Below, in pieces: positions 14,226-25,979 of a stretch of DNA of 44,573 nt. The number at the start of each line of letters is the position of its first letter. Position 1 is the stretch's first letter. Source of the DNA: an uncultured Phycisphaera sp. (lineage in GTDB: Bacteria; Planctomycetota; Phycisphaerae; Phycisphaerales; SM1A02); NCBI GenBank assembly GCA_937919685.1, contig CALFOM010000133.1, forward strand, positions 1 through 44,573, written 5' to 3'. A program made the position numbers and the translations under genes. A model generated the notes under the pieces. The model had not been told where the DNA came from. It searched no databases and saw nothing but the letters and a program-made list of their open reading frames with translations.

Positions 14226-16880
14226 ATGAATTTTCGCCTTCGCTGGGCTTTCCTCCTCGTCGCGATCTTCACTGTGGGCTCGATCACCCCTGATTCCTTT
14301 GCTCAAGGCGCCAGCGGACTGCCAGATCCCATTTCATCGACGGAGCTGAACACGATGCTGGCCGCTGCCGGCGCCGATGAATCCGATCTTGCGCTGACCG
14401 TCGATCCACATGGCCGGTACCTCCGCTCGATGGCGACACTCCGCAAAGGCGAGATCGAATCCTGGCTGGAGGAAAAACGAGAACGACCGGGTGTGATGGA
14501 CTCGTCGGACCCCGAGATGATCGGACAGCGAACCGCCGAACGGCGCCGACTGGCGATGCGAATCGCGTCGCTCGACCGCAGCCTATTCAACGAACTAGGC
14601 GACTCCGGAATCGACCAAGAAGTGATCGACCGCGCCCGAAGCGCACGATCTAGAGCGAGGTCCCGATCTCTCGCCGGCCGACGCTTCACCAGTGGGATTC
14701 GCTTCGAGCCGCTGGAGATCTATGCCTCGATCATGGCGGGTCCAGATGTCACAGAAGACCGGGATCAGGCGTTGGAGGCCGCGGTTCTTGAGATCATCTT
14801 TGAGCATGACAGGCTTCGTACCAGTCGCCTCGCCGCACTTTCAAATGCAGCGATCGAACTTCCCTTCGCACGTGCCGAGAGGATGGCGGAATTCAGTGAC
14901 GCGCAGCCTGATCCCAGAGACACCACCGCCGAAGACATGACTGACTGGCTCGCCACGCGGGAACGAATTGGTCAGGAAGCGGCGATCGATGCCCGCGATC
15001 TTCAGGCAGACATCGTCAAACTTGATCGCATGGTACTGAACCGAATTCTGAGCACCTTTCCGGATTCCAACGGGCATGCCTTTGCCATCGCTTTCCGGAA
15101 TGAATGGCTCGCGGCGGCGCATCCCTCGGCCTTCCCCGACCGCGAATCCCCTGCATCCCTCTTTGAAAAAGCTCGCGTCGCCCGCGAGAAGGGTGAGATG
15201 CCGGACGAGACCTACTCGGAGATCGAGTCACTCGAAGCGGCATGGAGACCCTCCCATCGCGCCTTGGAAGACCGACTGAACGAAGCGATCGAAGAAGAGA
15301 TCCGTGCCGGGTCCACCGGGTCCAGCCTGGAGATTGGCGGCGTCTCGATTACCATCGGTACCGACGGTATTCCCTTTCTGGATACCCCGGACCGCCCTTC
15401 GACGGGCATACGGCAGGACCGCGCTGATCTTGATCGTTCGATCCGGACACGCCTCGAGATGCTCTCGCCCGAACTCCTCGCCAATCGTGTTCGCGAAGGA
15501 ACGGTCGGCGCGTTGCGCATGGGCGGTGGCGGCGATGGCGATGGCCAAAGCATCGTCTTCAGCGCCGTGATGATCGGGGACAGCATGGGCGGCGAGGCGA
15601 TACAAATCAACACCGATGGGGCCATGTTCGCGATGAAGATAGCCGGCGTGGGAAGTTCGGGAATCCCCCGCCCCATCGACCGAGCAGCCTTCGACGTCTT
15701 GATCATGAAATTGAATGTCGACGACGCGACGCGACCCATCGGCGACGTGCTATTCCTCGCGTATCAGGATGGCTGGGTGGAGATTGAAGAGACTCTGGTC
15801 GCCGCCTTTCAAGAGACACGGAAGCCCGGCTTTGGCCCCGGCGGGCCCGTATCCGCCGACCCTGCAGATGTTCGCCGCGGGGCCGCACAACGCCTGGACA
15901 TCTTCAATGCGATGAATGATCTCGATGCATCCCTCTTCCGAGATCTCGGAACGGTGATCGACGCGCCGGAGATGATCAAGTCTTTGATGATGCAGCGGCG
16001 TCGGGCGATTGCTGTCGAGACACTACAGGGCGGCCGAGGCATGTTTCCCGCGCCCGGCCGAAACCAAGTCGCGGATCTGGATCTCACCGAGGCTTTGAAG
16101 GAAGTCCTGCCGACCTCCGAGTGGGACGACCAGATTGACCAGCTGAGCCGGGAATACGCCGAAGAGATCACTCCGGCGCTGGTCTCCCGGACGCTCGGTT
16201 TGATCGAGGTCGAACGCGACGCCCAACTCGCAGAGCAGAACATGATGACCGCGTTTTCGGAGGACAGCGGTGGCGGCGGAGCCGTCGTTCGATCCATGGC
16301 AGTCGACTTCGATGCTCAAAGCGATCTGATGCGGAACTTGCAGGAAATCGATCGACGAAGAACCGCGATCGAGGCTGGCGTAGCCGACCGGCAATTGAGC
16401 TGGAGGGCCCGTCTTGCGGCCGCGCTGCCGTCTGGTATCGAGCCCGAGTTCCAACTCGCGGTCGATCGCTTGGCATGGCCAAGGTGTTTCCGGGATCCTC
16501 GTTCTCCGGAACCGATGTTCAAGGCAGCCCTTGACCTACCTAACCTCACGGAATCGCAGCATGCCGCACTGCTCGAACTCCGCGCAGACTGGAGAGCCGC
16601 CTGGAACGGCGCCTGCCGTGAGTTGATCACGATCGAAGCGGGCGGAGCTGGGGCCGCTCATTCCTTCGATGGCGAGCCCGACATCGCGGCGATGCAGAAG
16701 AACCAGTCCGAACGAAAACGAATCCGCTTCGTCCGGTCGGAGATCGACGAGCGAGCGGCGAGAAAACTGCTTGAGCTCTTGACCCCGGAACAGGCTGCCA
16801 CCGTGGGCGAACTTCCGGAACCCGCGAAGTCGAATTTCCCGATTGACTTCGGCAATGTCGAGATGTTCATTGGCGGCTGA
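14226..16880 (+). CDS. Large secreted protein of unknown function with internal duplication
   Basis: No named family is recognised across its 884 residues. A clear signal peptide (1-27, ending DSFAQ) is followed by mostly helical, charged sequence. The two halves appear to be copies offset by about 440-455 residues. LDRSLFNELGD (116) matches LDASLFRDLGT (566). RNEWLAAAHPSAFPDRESP (near 292) matches VDRLAWPRCFRDPRSPEP (near 746). LEMLSPELL (near 410) matches LELLTPEQA (near 849). The second copy contains LTESQ and LTPEQ, which fit the LTxxQ motif of Spy/CpxP-type periplasmic proteins. A glycine-rich stretch (MGGGGDGDGQ) lies in the middle. A periplasmic helical scaffold or chaperone is one possibility. 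It converges on queF with only five bases between the stops. Confidence 0.75.
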   Translation: MNFRLRWAFLLVAIFTVGSITPDSFAQGASGLPDPISSTELNTMLAAAGADESDLALTVDPHGRYLRSMATLRKGEIESWLEEKRERPGVMDSSDPEMIGQRTAERRRLAMRIASLDRSLFNELGDSGIDQEVIDRARSARSRARSRSLAGRRFTSGIRFEPLEIYASIMAGPDVTEDRDQALEAAVLEIIFEHDRLRTSRLAALSNAAIELPFARAERMAEFSDAQPDPRDTTAEDMTDWLATRERIGQEAAIDARDLQADIVKLDRMVLNRILSTFPDSNGHAFAIAFRNEWLAAAHPSAFPDRESPASLFEKARVAREKGEMPDETYSEIESLEAAWRPSHRALEDRLNEAIEEEIRAGSTGSSLEIGGVSITIGTDGIPFLDTPDRPSTGIRQDRADLDRSIRTRLEMLSPELLANRVREGTVGALRMGGGGDGDGQSIVFSAVMIGDSMGGEAIQINTDGAMFAMKIAGVGSSGIPRPIDRAAFDVLIMKLNVDDATRPIGDVLFLAYQDGWVEIEETLVAAFQETRKPGFGPGGPVSADPADVRRGAAQRLDIFNAMNDLDASLFRDLGTVIDAPEMIKSLMMQRRRAIAVETLQGGRGMFPAPGRNQVADLDLTEALKEVLPTSEWDDQIDQLSREYAEEITPALVSRTLGLIEVERDAQLAEQNMMTAFSEDSGGGGAVVRSMAVDFDAQSDLMRNLQEIDRRRTAIEAGVADRQLSWRARLAAALPSGIEPEFQLAVDRLAWPRCFRDPRSPEPMFKAALDLPNLTESQHAALLELRADWRAAWNGACRELITIEAGGAGAAHSFDGEPDIAAMQKNQSERKRIRFVRSEIDERAARKLLELLTPEQAATVGELPEPAKSNFPIDFGNVEMFIGG

Positions 16881-20266: not shown

Positions 20267-21091
20267 TCAATCTACGGCGGCCAACGCAAATCGGACCGCA
20301 TTCTTGAACATCATCAGCCCCGGCGTATCGCCGGATCGAACTGAGGGATCAAGTCGCGTCCAGGTCGGGTGCTGCGACCATCGCGTGTAACGCTCCGGAT
20401 GCGGCATCAGGCCGAAGACCAGGCCGCTGGCATCGCAGATTCCCGCGACGCGATCTTGGGATCCATTGAAATGATCTCGAGCCGTGTATCGCAAGGCGAT
20501 CCGGCCGGATCGATCGAGATCGGCCAGAACGTCTGGGGCCGCCACGAATCGTCCCTCGCCGTGCGCGGAGGGAAGCACCATCACCGCGGGATCGATGCCC
20601 TCGATACCGGCCGTCCAGATGCAGCGACTCTCCGATGGAATCTCGAAGCCGGTCCAATCGTCGCGAAAACGCCCGGCCTCGTTGGGCGCCAGTGCCACGA
20701 TCGGTCGAGACGGGACCTCCGGCCAGTTCTCGCCGTTGCCCGGTCCGGGAAGAAGACCGGCCTGAACCGCAATCTGAAAACCGTTGCACGGGGCGATCAT
20801 CGGAACGCCTCGATCGATCGCGGCGGACAACGCGCCGTAGAGTCCCTTCCTGATCAACTGGGCGAGCACTCGCCCCGCACCGCCATCATCTCCGTAGCTG
20901 AAGCCACCGGGAAGCCCGATGAGCGCAAAGTCGTCGACGATGGCCGGCCGGTCGATCAGATCGGAGAGCAGTACCGAAGTCGGCGTCGCTCCTGCCTCCC
21001 GGAATGCCAGACTCAGTTCGCCGTCACAGTTGATGCCGGGCGCCGTAATGATCAGTGCCCTCGGCGCATCGCCGTGATTCGCGTCGGTCAT
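20267..21091 (-). CDS. purQ: Phosphoribosylformylglycinamidine synthase, glutaminase subunit
   Basis: Class I glutamine amidotransferase subunit supplying ammonia to PurL for step four of purine synthesis. The protein has 274 residues. It opens with ITAPGINCDGEL, followed by GLPGGFSYGDD. The catalytic cysteine lies in APCNGFQIAVQ, and the His and Glu are in GLMPHPERYTRW. The ATG at 21091 overlaps the purL stop as ATGA (21088-21091), so it is preferred over the GTG nine bases upstream. At its 3' end it abuts or overlaps the zinc-ribbon membrane gene. It is longer than the roughly 225-residue Bacillus-type PurQ because of loops after the active-site region. Confidence 0.95.
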   Translation of the reverse strand: MTDANHGDAPRALIITAPGINCDGELSLAFREAGATPTSVLLSDLIDRPAIVDDFALIGLPGGFSYGDDGGAGRVLAQLIRKGLYGALSAAIDRGVPMIAPCNGFQIAVQAGLLPGPGNGENWPEVPSRPIVALAPNEAGRFRDDWTGFEIPSESRCIWTAGIEGIDPAVMVLPSAHGEGRFVAAPDVLADLDRSGRIALRYTARDHFNGSQDRVAGICDASGLVFGLMPHPERYTRWSQHPTWTRLDPSVRSGDTPGLMMFKNAVRFALAAVD

Positions 21092-24000
21092 CGGTCGCAC
21101 CCCTTCTCCCAGGCATTGCGGAAGCGATCGGCCAACTCGGAAGATACGCCGAATTCACCACTTGAAATCACCACTTCGCCACCATCTGGGCCGGCTTCGG
21201 TGAAGCGACCAATGACTGCGTGCGGGATTCCGTCGAAAATCGTGGCGATCGCATCCAAGTCACCTTCCTTCACCTCAAGCAGATATCGGCAGGGGTCTTC
21301 GGCGAAGGCACGAGCGACATCGGAGACGCCATCTCCTCGCACCGGAACCATGTCCAACTGGACATCGACGCCGAGGCCACCCGCGAATGCCATCTCGATG
21401 GCAGCGACGAGCAGGCCGCCTTCGCTGGCGTCGTGAGCACTACGAACCAGACCTTGCTTGATGGCGGCATGAACCGCCGTTGCCGTGCGGGGTCCTCGCT
21501 CGAGATCGACCGTCGGAAGTTCATCACGACCGGACAATGCATCGCCGCCGATTCGAATGAAGTGCGATCCGCCAAGTCGGTCGGTCGTCTCGCCGATCAG
21601 GACGAGTCGATTTCCAGGCCGCTTGGCGTCCATGGTCGTGGCCAGCGATTCATCTTCGACGATACCCATCCCCGAGATCAGCAGCGTCGGCGGGATTCGA
21701 ATGGTCAGACCTTCGTCGGTGGTGAACTGATTGTTGAGCGAATCCTTGCCACTGATGAACGGCGTGCCGTAGGCGATGCCTCCATCGAGGCAGGCCTCGG
21801 CCGCCCGGACCAGAGAGCCAAGATTCCGCGGGTCGTCGCAACTGGGCCAGCAGAAGTTGTCGAGGATGGCGATCCGTGATGGATCCGCGCCGACACAGAC
21901 CATGTTTCGAACGCATTCATCAATCGCCGCGAGTCCCATCTCGTATGGATCGCGTGCCAGCCCAGTGGCCAGACCATTGCCGATCGCCAATCCCTTCGGG
22001 GACGTCGGCACCGGCCGGACGATCGCCGCATCACCGGGTCCGGCATTCGGACCAACGAACGGCTTGACGACGCTTCCGCCTTGAACCTCGTGATCGTACT
22101 GCCGAACGATCCAGGCCTTGCTGGCGAGGTTTGGATGTCCGAGCAGTTGCGCCGCCGCATCGAACAGGCCTGCGATATCGGCGATCTTCGGCTGAGGCTC
22201 GACACCGGGGTCCTCACCACCGGCTTCCAGTGCGGCCCATTCCGGATCCCAGACCGCCTTCCGCACCGGCATCGGCACGCCGTCGTGAAGGAACTCCATG
22301 CCGATCCGGCCGACTTCGACCTCGTCCCAACGGAGAATCAACTCGCGGCCTGGCGTCCCGAAGACGCCGAGGTCGCACCACTCGACGCCATGGCCTTCGC
22401 AGATGGCCGCGATCTTGGCGACCTTCTCGGCCGGGACCGCAAGCACCATGCGTTCCTGCGCTTCGCTGATCCAGACTTCCACCGGCGTCAGTCCGTCATA
22501 TTTCAACGGCGCCTGTTCCAGCTGGACGATCGCACCGATCTTCTCACCCATCTCACCGACCGCACTCGAGAAACCGCCGGCACCGCAATCGGTGATCGCG
22601 GTAAAGAGGCAGCCATCAACGTGATCTCGAGCCGCGAGGACCGCGTCCAGCGTCACCTTCTCGGTGATCGCATTACCGATCTGTACCGCATGACTAAACT
22701 CGTCCGCGTGCGTGTCGGTGAGTTCGGCACTCGAAAAAGTCGCGCCGTGAATCCCGTCGCGTCCGGTCCGGCCGCCCATCGCGATGATTCGATCGCCGGG
22801 AATGGCATCCCCTTCAATCGCGGTTCGCGGCATGACGCCCACGCAACCGCAGTAGACCAGAGGGTTACCGATGTATCGGTCATCGAACCAGACTCCGCCA
22901 TTGACGATGGGGATGCCCATTCGATTCCCGTAGTCACGGACTCCCCCGACCACCTCACCCAGAATGCGATGCGGATGAAGGCAGCCGTTCGGGACAGAGG
23001 GCGCCGCGTCCGTCCCGACACAGAAGACGTTGGTCGCCGCAATCGGCTTCGCGGCGAGCCCCGTTCCCATGATGTCCCGAATGCAACCGCCAATCCCCGT
23101 GGCCGCACCGCCGTAGGGCTCGATCGCGGATGGATGATTGTGCGTCTCAACCTTCATGCAGACCGCGGTGTCTTCGTCGAAGGCGACGATTCCCGCGTTG
23201 TCCACAAAGACCGAGAGGCACCAGTCGTCCAGTCCTTCCGCCATCAGACGGTGGGTGGCGGCCGCCACGGTCGACTTCAGCAGGTTGTCGATGCGAACGC
23301 TGCCATCGGCGCCGAGGGAATGCCCCGGACGGTTTCCAGCCGACTCCCGAATCGAGACCGCCCCGCGGTCGGAGAGATCGGCCGGTTCGTGATAGTCGAT
23401 GGTCGCCTTGAGCGTCTTGTGCACGCAATGCTCGGACCAGGTCTGGGCGAGGGTCTCGAGCTCGATCTCACGAGGCTCGCGTTCCAAAGATCGATAGTGC
23501 GATTGAATCGCCAGCATCTCGTCAAGCGAGAGGAAGAGGTGGGCTTCCCGACTGAGTCGTTCGAGCGACGGGGCATCGAGTTCGCAAAGCGGGACATCGC
23601 GCACTTCAAACGGCTGGTGATGCCCCACGGGGAAGGAACTCGGCTGATACGGCTCGGTGTGAATCGCATGAATGACTGGATTCGCCAGCAGCCTCGTGGC
23701 GAGCTCGCGACCGGCCTCGGCGTCGATGCCACCGAAGGTGTATCGCCGGCCAGTTCGGACCACAATGCCCGATGCGCGATCCTCGCCGACCATCGCCGCG
23801 ATCGCCGTGGCGATCGACGCTGCGGCAGGATCCATCACACCGGGAAGTGGATGAACCTCGATCACCACCTGACCCGGCTCCGGAGTCGCGGCACCGATCA
23901 CCGCGGACTGCATGACCGGATCCGCAAGGAGTTCCTCCGCGATCCGAAGAAGCTCCGCGTCGGCGAGCGACCCTTCCAGAAGATAGACGGCCGCACAGTG

Positions 24001-24150
24001 CACCGAAGACGGAACCAACGCATCCGGAAGCCCGGCGGCGTCCCGGCGAATGGCATCCGCGGTGGGATCCCCGGCTTCCGGTCGGCGGTGAATCTCGATT
24101 CGATGAACAGTGGCGGTCATGGGCGAAGAAACGGCGGTGGCTGTGGACAT
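21088..24150 (-). CDS. purL: PurL with fused PurS-like N-terminal region
   Basis: ATP-dependent synthetase subunit converting FGAR to FGAM. At 1020 residues it is intermediate between the small PurL (about 740, with separate PurS and PurQ) and the large form (about 1300, with a fused glutaminase). Residues 11-85 and 90-170 look like two PurS-type units, each ending alike (LADPVMQSAVI, LANPVIHAIHT). The synthetase core follows: WSEHCVHKTLKATI, VETHNHPSAIEPYGGAATGIGG, ITDCGAGGFSSAVGEMGEK and SAHDASEGGLLVAAIEMA. The ATG at 24150 is used; the next at 24120 is possible. The frame extends 106 codons further into the porin terminator region and is rejected there. purQ follows with a four-base overlap. 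Confidence 0.94.
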   Translation of the reverse strand: MSTATAVSSPMTATVHRIEIHRRPEAGDPTADAIRRDAAGLPDALVPSSVHCAAVYLLEGSLADAELLRIAEELLADPVMQSAVIGAATPEPGQVVIEVHPLPGVMDPAAASIATAIAAMVGEDRASGIVVRTGRRYTFGGIDAEAGRELATRLLANPVIHAIHTEPYQPSSFPVGHHQPFEVRDVPLCELDAPSLERLSREAHLFLSLDEMLAIQSHYRSLEREPREIELETLAQTWSEHCVHKTLKATIDYHEPADLSDRGAVSIRESAGNRPGHSLGADGSVRIDNLLKSTVAAATHRLMAEGLDDWCLSVFVDNAGIVAFDEDTAVCMKVETHNHPSAIEPYGGAATGIGGCIRDIMGTGLAAKPIAATNVFCVGTDAAPSVPNGCLHPHRILGEVVGGVRDYGNRMGIPIVNGGVWFDDRYIGNPLVYCGCVGVMPRTAIEGDAIPGDRIIAMGGRTGRDGIHGATFSSAELTDTHADEFSHAVQIGNAITEKVTLDAVLAARDHVDGCLFTAITDCGAGGFSSAVGEMGEKIGAIVQLEQAPLKYDGLTPVEVWISEAQERMVLAVPAEKVAKIAAICEGHGVEWCDLGVFGTPGRELILRWDEVEVGRIGMEFLHDGVPMPVRKAVWDPEWAALEAGGEDPGVEPQPKIADIAGLFDAAAQLLGHPNLASKAWIVRQYDHEVQGGSVVKPFVGPNAGPGDAAIVRPVPTSPKGLAIGNGLATGLARDPYEMGLAAIDECVRNMVCVGADPSRIAILDNFCWPSCDDPRNLGSLVRAAEACLDGGIAYGTPFISGKDSLNNQFTTDEGLTIRIPPTLLISGMGIVEDESLATTMDAKRPGNRLVLIGETTDRLGGSHFIRIGGDALSGRDELPTVDLERGPRTATAVHAAIKQGLVRSAHDASEGGLLVAAIEMAFAGGLGVDVQLDMVPVRGDGVSDVARAFAEDPCRYLLEVKEGDLDAIATIFDGIPHAVIGRFTEAGPDGGEVVISSGEFGVSSELADRFRNAWEKGCDR

Positions 24151-24276
24151 TTCGCCTGATTTTAGGAGAAGCGAGGCCCGACCGCCCCCGGGTGGACGGC
24201 GAGCGGCGCGAGATCCCCGAAAATGGCATCGGCTCGCGTCAGTTCGACTGGCCGGTCTCCGACGATCACCCAAGAA

Positions 24277-24310
24277 ATGCGGTCCCGCCGGCGAACCAGC
24301 GAGACCGCAT
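24277..24310 (-). terminator. Rho-independent-type terminator after porin 1
   Basis: In the minus-strand transcript ATGCGGTCTCGC pairs with GCGGGACCGCAT, twelve pairs with one G-U, around a ten-base loop. TTTCTTG follows directly. It lies about 30 bases after the stop of the first porin gene and ahead of purL, separating the two units. Confidence 0.8.
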
Positions 24311-24338
24311 GAATGGAAGCAATCAGTCGGCCAGCGGC

Positions 24339-25979
24339 TCAGAAGAGCAGTTGGACATACGTCTTGAAGACGTAGGCGTCGCTCACCGGCGTCGAACGTA
24401 TGCCCGTTTCGGGAGTGGTCCAGGCGGGCGAGACGGAATTGGGCATGTACGTCGCCGAGAAGCCCCACTTCAGGTCCTCGCCGTCGAGATACCAGGTGGC
24501 ACCCATCGTGAAGCCCTGGTACGCGGAGGTGTCCGCATAGGCGCCGTAGAGAGTGTTGAGGTTCTGGGGAGGTGAGGTGAGCTCGCCGAGATTGCCGTTG
24601 TCGACGACGTCCATGTAGTCGAAGCCGATGTAGCCTTCGACATCCTCAGTGAGGTACAGCGAACCGTACAGGCTCAAGCCCAACATTCCCACGTTGCCCG
24701 CGTCGAAGGTCGGATTGCTGCTTCCGACCGGCGCAAAGCCAAAGAAAAGATAGGCCGACGACGAATTGACCATGTGGTAGTAGGCCGATGCGGCGATGGT
24801 CGCACCTCCAAGATTGGCGGTCACATCGGCCGTCAAAGCGAGCCAGTCGTTGTCGCCTCTATCAGTCGAGTTGTTGTAGGACGTGGAATTGAGCAACACC
24901 TGGCTTCGCTGCCAATGGGAACCAACGCCAAGCAGCAGCCCGAATTCCTCTCCCGGCGGAGAAGTCATGGTTTCGAAGTCACGCCACTGTCCAGCGATTT
25001 TGAATTCGGCTCGGGCGGAAAATGCGAACGCTGCCTGCGAGAAGTAGTACGGCGAGTTTGCGGGCTGCGTCGTGCTCAAGGCGAAACCGCTGAGGAGGCG
25101 ATCGTTCCCGCCATCACTGAATGCGCCGCGAACTCTGACCGAATCACTTCCCCAGGAGAGCTCGACGCCCTGACTGCGACCAAGCCCCATGTGCACGGCG
25201 ACGGTATCTCGCTCCCCGGTGAGCTGATAGGCAATCGGGATTTCCCAGCCTCGATCGAATGGAAGTTTGAACTGTCCAACTCGCACCGCAAAACCATCGC
25301 CGAGTTCCTGGAGGATGTAGGCATCGAGTAGTTTGAAATTGCCATTCGCAGCGCCGTATTCTGGAGCCGCCGCCACCGGAGGGGTCGAGTAGAGCTGGAA
25401 TGCATCCGGCCGCTGATTACTGAATTCCCCTTGAATTCGGAATCGCGTATCCGGTCCGAAGACATGGCCCTTGAAGTCCAACCGGGCGTGCGGAATGTCC
25501 CATCCATTTCTGGACGTGACGTCATCCTCGGCCGCGAATTCCTGACCGGGCTGGGTCTCCGCGTTGAATCCATCCCTGATGTGGGAAGACATGTACCGGG
25601 CCTGCACCATGCCGCCGACCTCGAGCCGAAACCGCCCGTCGGGGCTCTGAAGGAAGAACCCATTGTCCCAGCCCCCGCTCATGCCGGCACTTTGAAGGCT
25701 CGCCCGAGTCTCAGAATCGGCCAGAACATCGGTGACGACGCCCCGGATCTGGTCGGCTCGCTCCTGAGTCAGCCAGGTCTCGGCATCGGCCGCTTCGAGT
25801 TCGTTGACCCGTGTCTGAAGCGTACCGTTCTGTTTCTCGATCTCGGCGAGCCGCCGAGCCATCTCCTGGATGGCACTGGCATCGCTGGTTCCAGCATTCT
25901 GCCCGAATGCCGATCCCACGAGAATGAGGCCTGACGCACCCATCACACCGACTGTTAGTCCAATTTGCATCCTGCGCAT
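24339..25979 (-). CDS. Outer-membrane porin 1, coiled-coil N-terminus
   Basis: Predicted outer-membrane beta-barrel of 546 residues, like the planctomycete relatives of phosphate-selective porins OprO/OprP. Signal peptide about 1-27 (ending GSAFGQ). A short coiled coil follows (about 38-62, MARRLAEIEKQNGTLQTRVNELEA), then a conserved block WLTQERADQIRGVVTDVLAD. The barrel begins at NGFFLQSPDGRFRLEVGGMVQARY and ends with KTYVQLLF, an aromatic C-terminal signal for outer-membrane insertion. It is the most divergent of three tandem paralogues. The ATG at 25979 has GAGGA five to six bases upstream; ATGs at 26003 and 26045 are rejected for that reason. A terminator follows. The substrate cannot be inferred. 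Confidence 0.85.
   Translation of the reverse strand: MRRMQIGLTVGVMGASGLILVGSAFGQNAGTSDASAIQEMARRLAEIEKQNGTLQTRVNELEAADAETWLTQERADQIRGVVTDVLADSETRASLQSAGMSGGWDNGFFLQSPDGRFRLEVGGMVQARYMSSHIRDGFNAETQPGQEFAAEDDVTSRNGWDIPHARLDFKGHVFGPDTRFRIQGEFSNQRPDAFQLYSTPPVAAAPEYGAANGNFKLLDAYILQELGDGFAVRVGQFKLPFDRGWEIPIAYQLTGERDTVAVHMGLGRSQGVELSWGSDSVRVRGAFSDGGNDRLLSGFALSTTQPANSPYYFSQAAFAFSARAEFKIAGQWRDFETMTSPPGEEFGLLLGVGSHWQRSQVLLNSTSYNNSTDRGDNDWLALTADVTANLGGATIAASAYYHMVNSSSAYLFFGFAPVGSSNPTFDAGNVGMLGLSLYGSLYLTEDVEGYIGFDYMDVVDNGNLGELTSPPQNLNTLYGAYADTSAYQGFTMGATWYLDGEDLKWGFSATYMPNSVSPAWTTPETGIRSTPVSDAYVFKTYVQLLF

Follow-up and report, generated by a model that had tools for sequence, protein, structure and literature searches.

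A two-unit, probably secreted protein of Planctomycetota with an internal duplication and probable distant kinship to the LTXXQ (Spy/CpxP/CnrX) superfamily

The question raised by this locus is what a protein of 884 residues with two similar halves is made of, and what it could do in the cell envelope of a planctomycete. The window is the whole stretch of DNA that was analyzed, 44,573 nucleotides in length, and the gene, P0001, lies at 14226..16880 on the plus strand. It starts with ATG, has no internal stop codon, and has relatives in the same genus. Full-length relatives are found at 64-73% identity in three genomes of the genus (G007, G006, and G001) and at 40-41% in two more (G002 and G003). 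The full-length relatives in the first three genomes indicate that the 884-residue open reading frame is a genuine gene. A putative signal peptide, recognized by eye, covers residues 1-27 (14306 is its last base), with a basic n-region, a hydrophobic core, and a final SFAQ followed by G. Both Q27 and G28 are conserved in 24 of 27 aligned members. The product would be a secreted, soluble protein of the cell envelope. A scan of P0001 against NCBIfam found no families, a scan of ten relatives found nothing approaching its cut-off, and Rfam and tRNA searches across the window found no RNA genes.

The two halves of P0001 are almost certainly the products of an internal duplication. Unit 1, the N half, comprises residues 28-425 (14307..15500), and its homolog, unit 2 or the C half, comprises residues 476-872 (15651..16841). 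A glycine-rich linker joins them (residues 421-476, 15486..15653), which has pLDDT below 50 and is probably disordered and flexible. A sequence-only reading had proposed the duplication from three landmarks recurring in the same order. A single gapped alignment places all three in register, with LDRSLFNELGD at 116 paired with LDASLFRDLGT at 566, FPDRESP at 303 with FRDPRSP at 755, and LEMLSPE at 410 with LELLTPE at 849, and the measured offsets are 450, 452, and 439 residues. The duplication itself was borne out by shuffling tests, BLASTP of the halves, profile comparison, and the shared order of the main helices. Four choices of split gave half-versus-half alignment scores of 141, 141, 122, and 117. 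Shuffled sequences averaged about 43 (SD 6.2-7.3), and the observed score was reached in 0 of 300 shuffles at each split. In the 141-score alignment 96 of 368 aligned residue pairs are identical. Shuffling inside 20-residue windows gave 46.1±7.9 for this alignment, with a maximum of 89 in 500 shuffles, and reversal of the C half gave 43. BLASTP of one half against the other gave an E-value of 3e-5. When the N and C halves of 27 aligned two-unit members, P0001 included, were compared with hhalign, the probability was 100% with an E-value of 7.9e-45 over 370 columns; hhalign E-values are those of single comparisons, and X residues due to masked bases were removed from the translated relatives. 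The duplication is old and common to the two-unit relatives.

The protein is predicted to be almost entirely helical, with one unit of about 400 residues doubled end to end. An AlphaFold2 model of P0001 based on 21 sequences had a mean pLDDT of 76.3 and a pTM of 0.74. The N half folded alone more confidently than the whole chain (pLDDT 84.7, pTM 0.84), and thus the unit looks like a self-standing domain. With kinked helices merged, the first six helices of the N half are at residues 38-47, 52-86, 96-126, 131-150, 162-170, and 181-222, and the last six are at 235-276, 281-298, 310-321, 327-361, 391-413, and 415-418. The first six of the C half are at 486-495, 503-532, 546-577, 581-600, 620-627, and 635-681, and the last six are at 695-733, 739-755, 762-769, 776-810, 820-851, and 854-860. 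Matched by eye in this model, the helices follow the same order in the two halves. Two elements are unpaired: the C half has a short helix at 614-617, and the N half has a small pair of strands at 367-376.

Profile comparisons support distant kinship with the LTXXQ hairpin superfamily (Spy, CpxP, CnrX, and ZraP) for two stretches, one opening unit 1 and one closing unit 2, and P0001 is likely to be related to this superfamily. The profile combined Spy and CpxP of Escherichia coli with 12 LTXXQ proteins from the order to which P0001 belongs. These were 12 of 15 extracted scan hits; L100, L103, and L104 were omitted, L100 being a member of the P0001 family. The test was repeated with two disjoint sub-profiles of the same set. 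Module N1 (residues 34-150, 14325..14675), with helices at 38-47, 52-56, 59-86, 96-126, and 131-150, matched the full profile at 97.0% in hhalign and the sub-profiles at 96.0 and 96.3%. Module C2 (residues 745-870, 16458..16835) matched at 95.9%, and at 93.7 and 95.7% with the sub-profiles. The counterpart of C2 in unit 1, segment N2 (residues 290-425, 15093..15500), matched at 94.1%, and the counterpart of N1 in unit 2, segment C1 (residues 480-600, 15663..16025), at 93.8%. The sub-profiles lowered these to 88.5 and 86.8% for N2 and to 85.1 and 88.1% for C1, and for this reason the two segments are stated less firmly. The middle segments matched the full profile at 30.9 and 52.5% and the sub-profiles at 4.6-61.1%, while six reversed segments gave at most 1.2% with the full profile and 1.4% with the sub-profiles. 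Helical segments of P0001 outside the duplicate pairs match each other at 31.8-91.6% (the maximum is N2 with Cm), with the exceptions of N1 with N2 at 94.0% and N1 with C2 at 95.6%. Because such segments match each other at up to 91.6%, only N1 and C2 stand clear. Within P0001 the match is 99.5% between N1 and C1 and 99.4% between N2 and C2, so the kinship of N2 and C1 with LTXXQ would follow by descent.

The positions of the motif also point to the two outer modules. The sequence-only reading had noted that the second copy contains LTESQ and LTPEQ, which fit the LTxxQ motif. They are found at residues 774 and 852, both in C2. P0001 contains no further LxxxQ string, and the literal motif is therefore missing from its N half. 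Some relatives carry it at the corresponding positions of that half, at N1a in 11 of 27 and at N1b in 13 of 27. In the 27 members together L[ST]xxQ occurs 70 times, compared to 12.1±3.5 in shuffled sequences (maximum 24 in 500 shuffles). The places are C2a (15), C2b (14), N1b (13), N1a (11), N2a (6), and C1a (1), with 10 elsewhere, so that N1 and C2, with two places each, account for 53 of the 70. That a stretch like LTXXQ is also present at the start of unit 1 goes beyond what had been noticed earlier.

P0001 is below the curated threshold of the Pfam family. PF07813 (LTXXQ) matched residues 773-860 with an E-value of 0.071 and 14.3 bits, and in a DNA-level scan of its own genome P0001 was the sole match at E≤1 (E 0.011, 18 bits); the cut-off is 24.3 bits. 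Of the earlier suggestion that the protein is like Spy and CpxP, superfamily kinship is supported, by the N1 and C2 profiles and the CnrX structure matches among others, while membership in Pfam LTXXQ is not. LTXXQ is the commonest Pfam family among the members, found in 10 of 23 at E≤10, with the next family in 3 of 23. In nine of ten chosen members it was found at E≤1, located at N1 or C2; these ten were picked partly since earlier searches had flagged them. None of the ten whole relatives reached the cut-off, the best having 24.2 bits. LTXXQ was matched by just one of another ten members, most of them single-unit, among which were all four paralogs from the genome of P0001. A DNA-level scan of 61 genomes found ten family loci above the cut-off, identified by overlap with matches to the family profile. 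Among them are G034:C8 with 28.0 bits at the start of unit 1, G033:C48 with 27.5 bits at the end of unit 2, and the single-unit G022:C2 with 26.2 bits.

Of the 12 LTXXQ frames in the profile, the family models match L084 alone. This is a 307-residue LTXXQ protein (L084:1321-2244) with two LTXXQ matches side by side, matched by the unit-1 model at 25.9 bits, and this protein, from another taxonomic family of the order, is a possible intermediate form. L100 (G026:C15:189492-191960) is a family member in a 1093-residue frame with an above-cut-off LTXXQ match near its start. In three genomes of the same taxonomic family as P0001, a small genuine LTXXQ gene is present a few kb from a family match (G011:C44, G014:C42, and G019:C13, L090).

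Structure comparison gave its clearest result with module C2. In a VIA-align 2 search with residues 758-870, four CnrX entries were at the top (Z 9.7-10.4), and the next row had Z 8.2. C2 and CnrX entry 2y39 aligned with Z 10.4 and rmsd 2.5, which is below the tool's caution line of about 13 in Z for helical bundles. The N half alone gave a best Z of 6.5 with varied helical proteins, and CnrX, Spy, and CpxP were not among its best 50 rows. Foldseek with the full model gave 134 rows at E≤10 and none at 0.001, and CnrX, Spy, and CpxP were absent from the best 50 of the 134. Among PDB sequences, the N1 profile matched ZraP (3lay) with an E-value of 0.023, ranked second behind ING4 (0.020). The whole family profile placed ZraP third of four (E 0.44), and the C2 profile found no LTXXQ protein in 16 rows.

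Among the genomes surveyed the family was found in one planctomycete order only. The family profile matched 48 of the 61 genomes of the order, including that of P0001. By taxonomic family, members occur in all 37 genomes of the same family, in 4 of 6 of f2, in the single genome of f3, in all 6 of f4, and in none of the 6 of f5 or the 5 of f6. In a survey of the phylum 5 of 246 genomes matched, again including that of P0001, and all belong to the same order; no more than three candidates were scored per genome, and the apparent absence from other orders is therefore tentative. A pattern scan of named contigs found 30 stretches, of which 17 contain family frames, and the titles of these 17 name Phycisphaerales, Phycisphaeraceae, Phycisphaerae, Phycisphaera sp. 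TMED9, Planctomycetota, Planctomycetia, or Planctomycetaceae. A first P0001 scan of genome contigs gave 32 pattern-matched stretches, none of which was confirmed. Among the paper titles listed for LTXXQ, CpxP, Spy, CnrX, ZraP, and Phycisphaerae proteins, none describes such a protein, and no listed paper joined LTXXQ with Planctomycetes.

The family of P0001 has many copies and includes single-unit proteins, which goes beyond the earlier observations. Its genome has a second two-unit gene of 830 residues (G000:C119:48123-50609; L142:4127-6619), beside ThiF-family and DinB-like genes, and such neighbors recur in many relatives. Three more paralogs in the same genome are single-unit, with frames of 535, 461, and 557 residues, the last of which is truncated by a contig end. 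Among 8 loci inspected in four f2 genomes, 7 have two or three adjacent single-unit genes on the same strand and the eighth has one. Sets of three adjacent single-unit genes are present in each of these genomes (L146-L149), and in G061 (L147) the set adjoins a type II/IV secretion ATPase gene. The occurrence of single-unit genes in tandem in one taxonomic family and of fused two-unit genes in another makes a readable case of passage from small hairpins to a large single chain.

A tree of 74 units suggests how the two-unit genes arose. It placed 26 N units on one side of a branch with support of 92 and 26 C units likewise with support of 56. The tree was inferred rapidly under LG+G4 and has long branches; it leaves out L048 and L050 among the 27 two-unit rows and adds the second two-unit gene from the genome of P0001. 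The grouping is as expected for one duplication before the two-unit genes diversified. A tyrosine (65/513 in P0001; 68 of 73 units) and an arginine (143/593; 69 of 73) are nearly invariant and mark the unit. The 73 units comprise both units from each of the 27 two-unit rows (54) and 19 of the tree's 22 single units.

The surroundings of the gene vary within the family. On one side of P0001 is a transketolase gene in divergent orientation; on the other is queF, in convergent orientation, followed by a TPR gene. Transketolase, or relatives of the TPR and queF genes, are near family genes in L116, L117, and L130. Elsewhere in the window, a PurL-type protein is encoded on the minus strand at 21091-24468 with a PurS domain match in the same frame (residues 200-270), and a separate GATase_5 gene at 20270-21100 adjoins it. 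At other loci the typical neighbors are ThiF, HtrA with trypsin and PDZ domains, PanB, and DinB-like genes, with counts in 20 loci of 8, 6, and 6 for the first three. Read by eye among the matches listed, the best HtrA match lies no more than 10 kb from a family match in at least 9 of the 37 genomes of the same family (G011, G014, G022, G026, G027, G028, G029, G030, and G036), a lower bound given the short contigs, the one genome with no HtrA match, and the limit on listed matches. In 8 of these genomes the separation is within about 3.1 kb. In the genome of P0001 the HtrA-type genes are on other contigs than P0001. The link to HtrA was rejected as proof of function, since it is absent at P0001, the gene order may simply be inherited, and the count covers listed family matches only. 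In two genomes of the same genus the HtrA-type match, at G000:C81:6153-7661 and G007:C40:8918-10423, runs across one in-frame TAG.

P0001 may work in the cell envelope as an ATP-independent chaperone or adaptor. This is the most likely function given that the protein is likely secreted, has several related hairpins, and in places has an HtrA gene close by. Since the halves are homologous, N2 and C1 should descend from the same hairpins as their counterparts, giving four per chain, of which the two outer ones, N1 and C2, would keep the motif best. Much as a series of covalently joined Spy/CpxP-type hairpins might, the helical surfaces would bind envelope proteins that are damaged or unfolded, and the bound proteins would perhaps be handed on to a protease of the HtrA/DegP type. 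E. coli CpxP is described as degraded by DegP/HtrA (PMC6737893), and a title cited there has it degraded along with its substrate. E. coli Spy is described in PMC8144458 as a dimeric chaperone with four helices per chain, forming a cradle whose concave face is positively charged. Against this face, the mature P0001 has a net charge of -45, compared to +5 for Spy and -3 for CpxP, and 26 of 27 members are negative. The charge and the lack of HtrA linkage at P0001 count against a chaperone, and the strong negative charge would favor other clients or a scaffold role. Taken as a whole, the reading that joins duplication, LTXXQ kinship, and chaperone or adaptor function has a little less than an even chance. 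It is doubtful, although conceivable, that the family consists of lineage-specific giant envelope chaperones or adaptors. These would be covalent pseudo-oligomers with four Spy/CpxP-type hairpins per chain, expanded into several paralogs per genome within one order of Planctomycetota, some encoded beside a DegP-type gene, and acting alongside or replacing the small dimeric Spy/CpxP.

It is rather unlikely that P0001 instead serves a structural or scaffolding purpose in the planctomycete envelope, in which case the hairpins derived from LTXXQ would have lost their chaperone function and the many copies would reflect a building role. Each of the 37 genomes of the same family has 2-12 profile matches (matches and not genes, among the matches listed), and a building role agrees with this as it does with the acidity of nearly all members. 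The motif is mostly lost from N2 (6 of 27) and C1 (1 of 27), and the nearest neighbors of P0001 are metabolic genes and the TPR protein gene. However, the mean column identity in the family alignment is only 30%, which would be unusual for a lattice-forming protein, and no sign of sorting or anchoring was noticed in the sequence.

It is quite unlikely that P0001 is a generic helical repeat protein with a chance resemblance to LTXXQ. Its position below the Pfam threshold, the high matches of non-duplicate segments with each other, the absence of related structures from the best 50 rows for the N half, and the lack of an LTXXQ match in most scanned single-unit relatives would fit a chance resemblance. 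However, with each of the two disjoint LTXXQ profiles N1 and C2 reach 93.7-96.3%, which the middle and reversed segments do not, the motif places are enriched, and four CnrX entries head the structure list over nearly the whole domain. A metal sensor or buffer like CnrX or ZraP is improbable: CnrX gives the best structure rows, ZraP is among the weak sequence matches, one single-unit relative weakly matches Pfam Metal_resist (E 0.013), and the best-kept His/Met/Cys columns, H62 in N1 (23 of 27) and C797 in C2 (19 of 27), leave room for a metal site elsewhere, but P0001 has no His or Met at the places matched by simple offset to CnrX 42, 46, 119, and 123, which we take to be the ligand positions, and no sigma, anti-sigma, or sensor-kinase family was found among ten window neighbors scanned.

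With an ATP-independent chaperone or adaptor as the preferred reading, the family offers testable envelope chaperone candidates in Planctomycetota, where to our knowledge little is known about envelope protein quality control. Comparison with known systems shows which parts are shared. ZraP (3lay) shares with P0001 the second-ranked N1 profile match, which is weak and not significant; no counterpart of the Gly/His/Cys-rich tail of E. coli ZraP was noticed in P0001, which has 7 His and 2 Cys in its mature form. CnrX of Cupriavidus metallidurans superposes on C2 over 104 of 110 residues. Unlike CnrX, P0001 is not a single hairpin, and it differs in the neighbors scanned and, by the approximate end-to-end mapping, in its ligand places. 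E63 and M123 of CnrX are named in titles of structure entries, and E784 of P0001 is near the E63 place. The precursors of E. coli Spy and CpxP have 161 and 166 residues, compared to 884 in P0001, which also differs from them in having several modules and middle helical segments, in its net charge, and in its score below the Pfam cut-off. In common with the LTXXQ family (PF07813), P0001 is likely secreted and helical, has two LTxxQ-type motifs in C2, matches through its N1 and C2 profiles, and has the short-long-long-short order of helices in its end modules.
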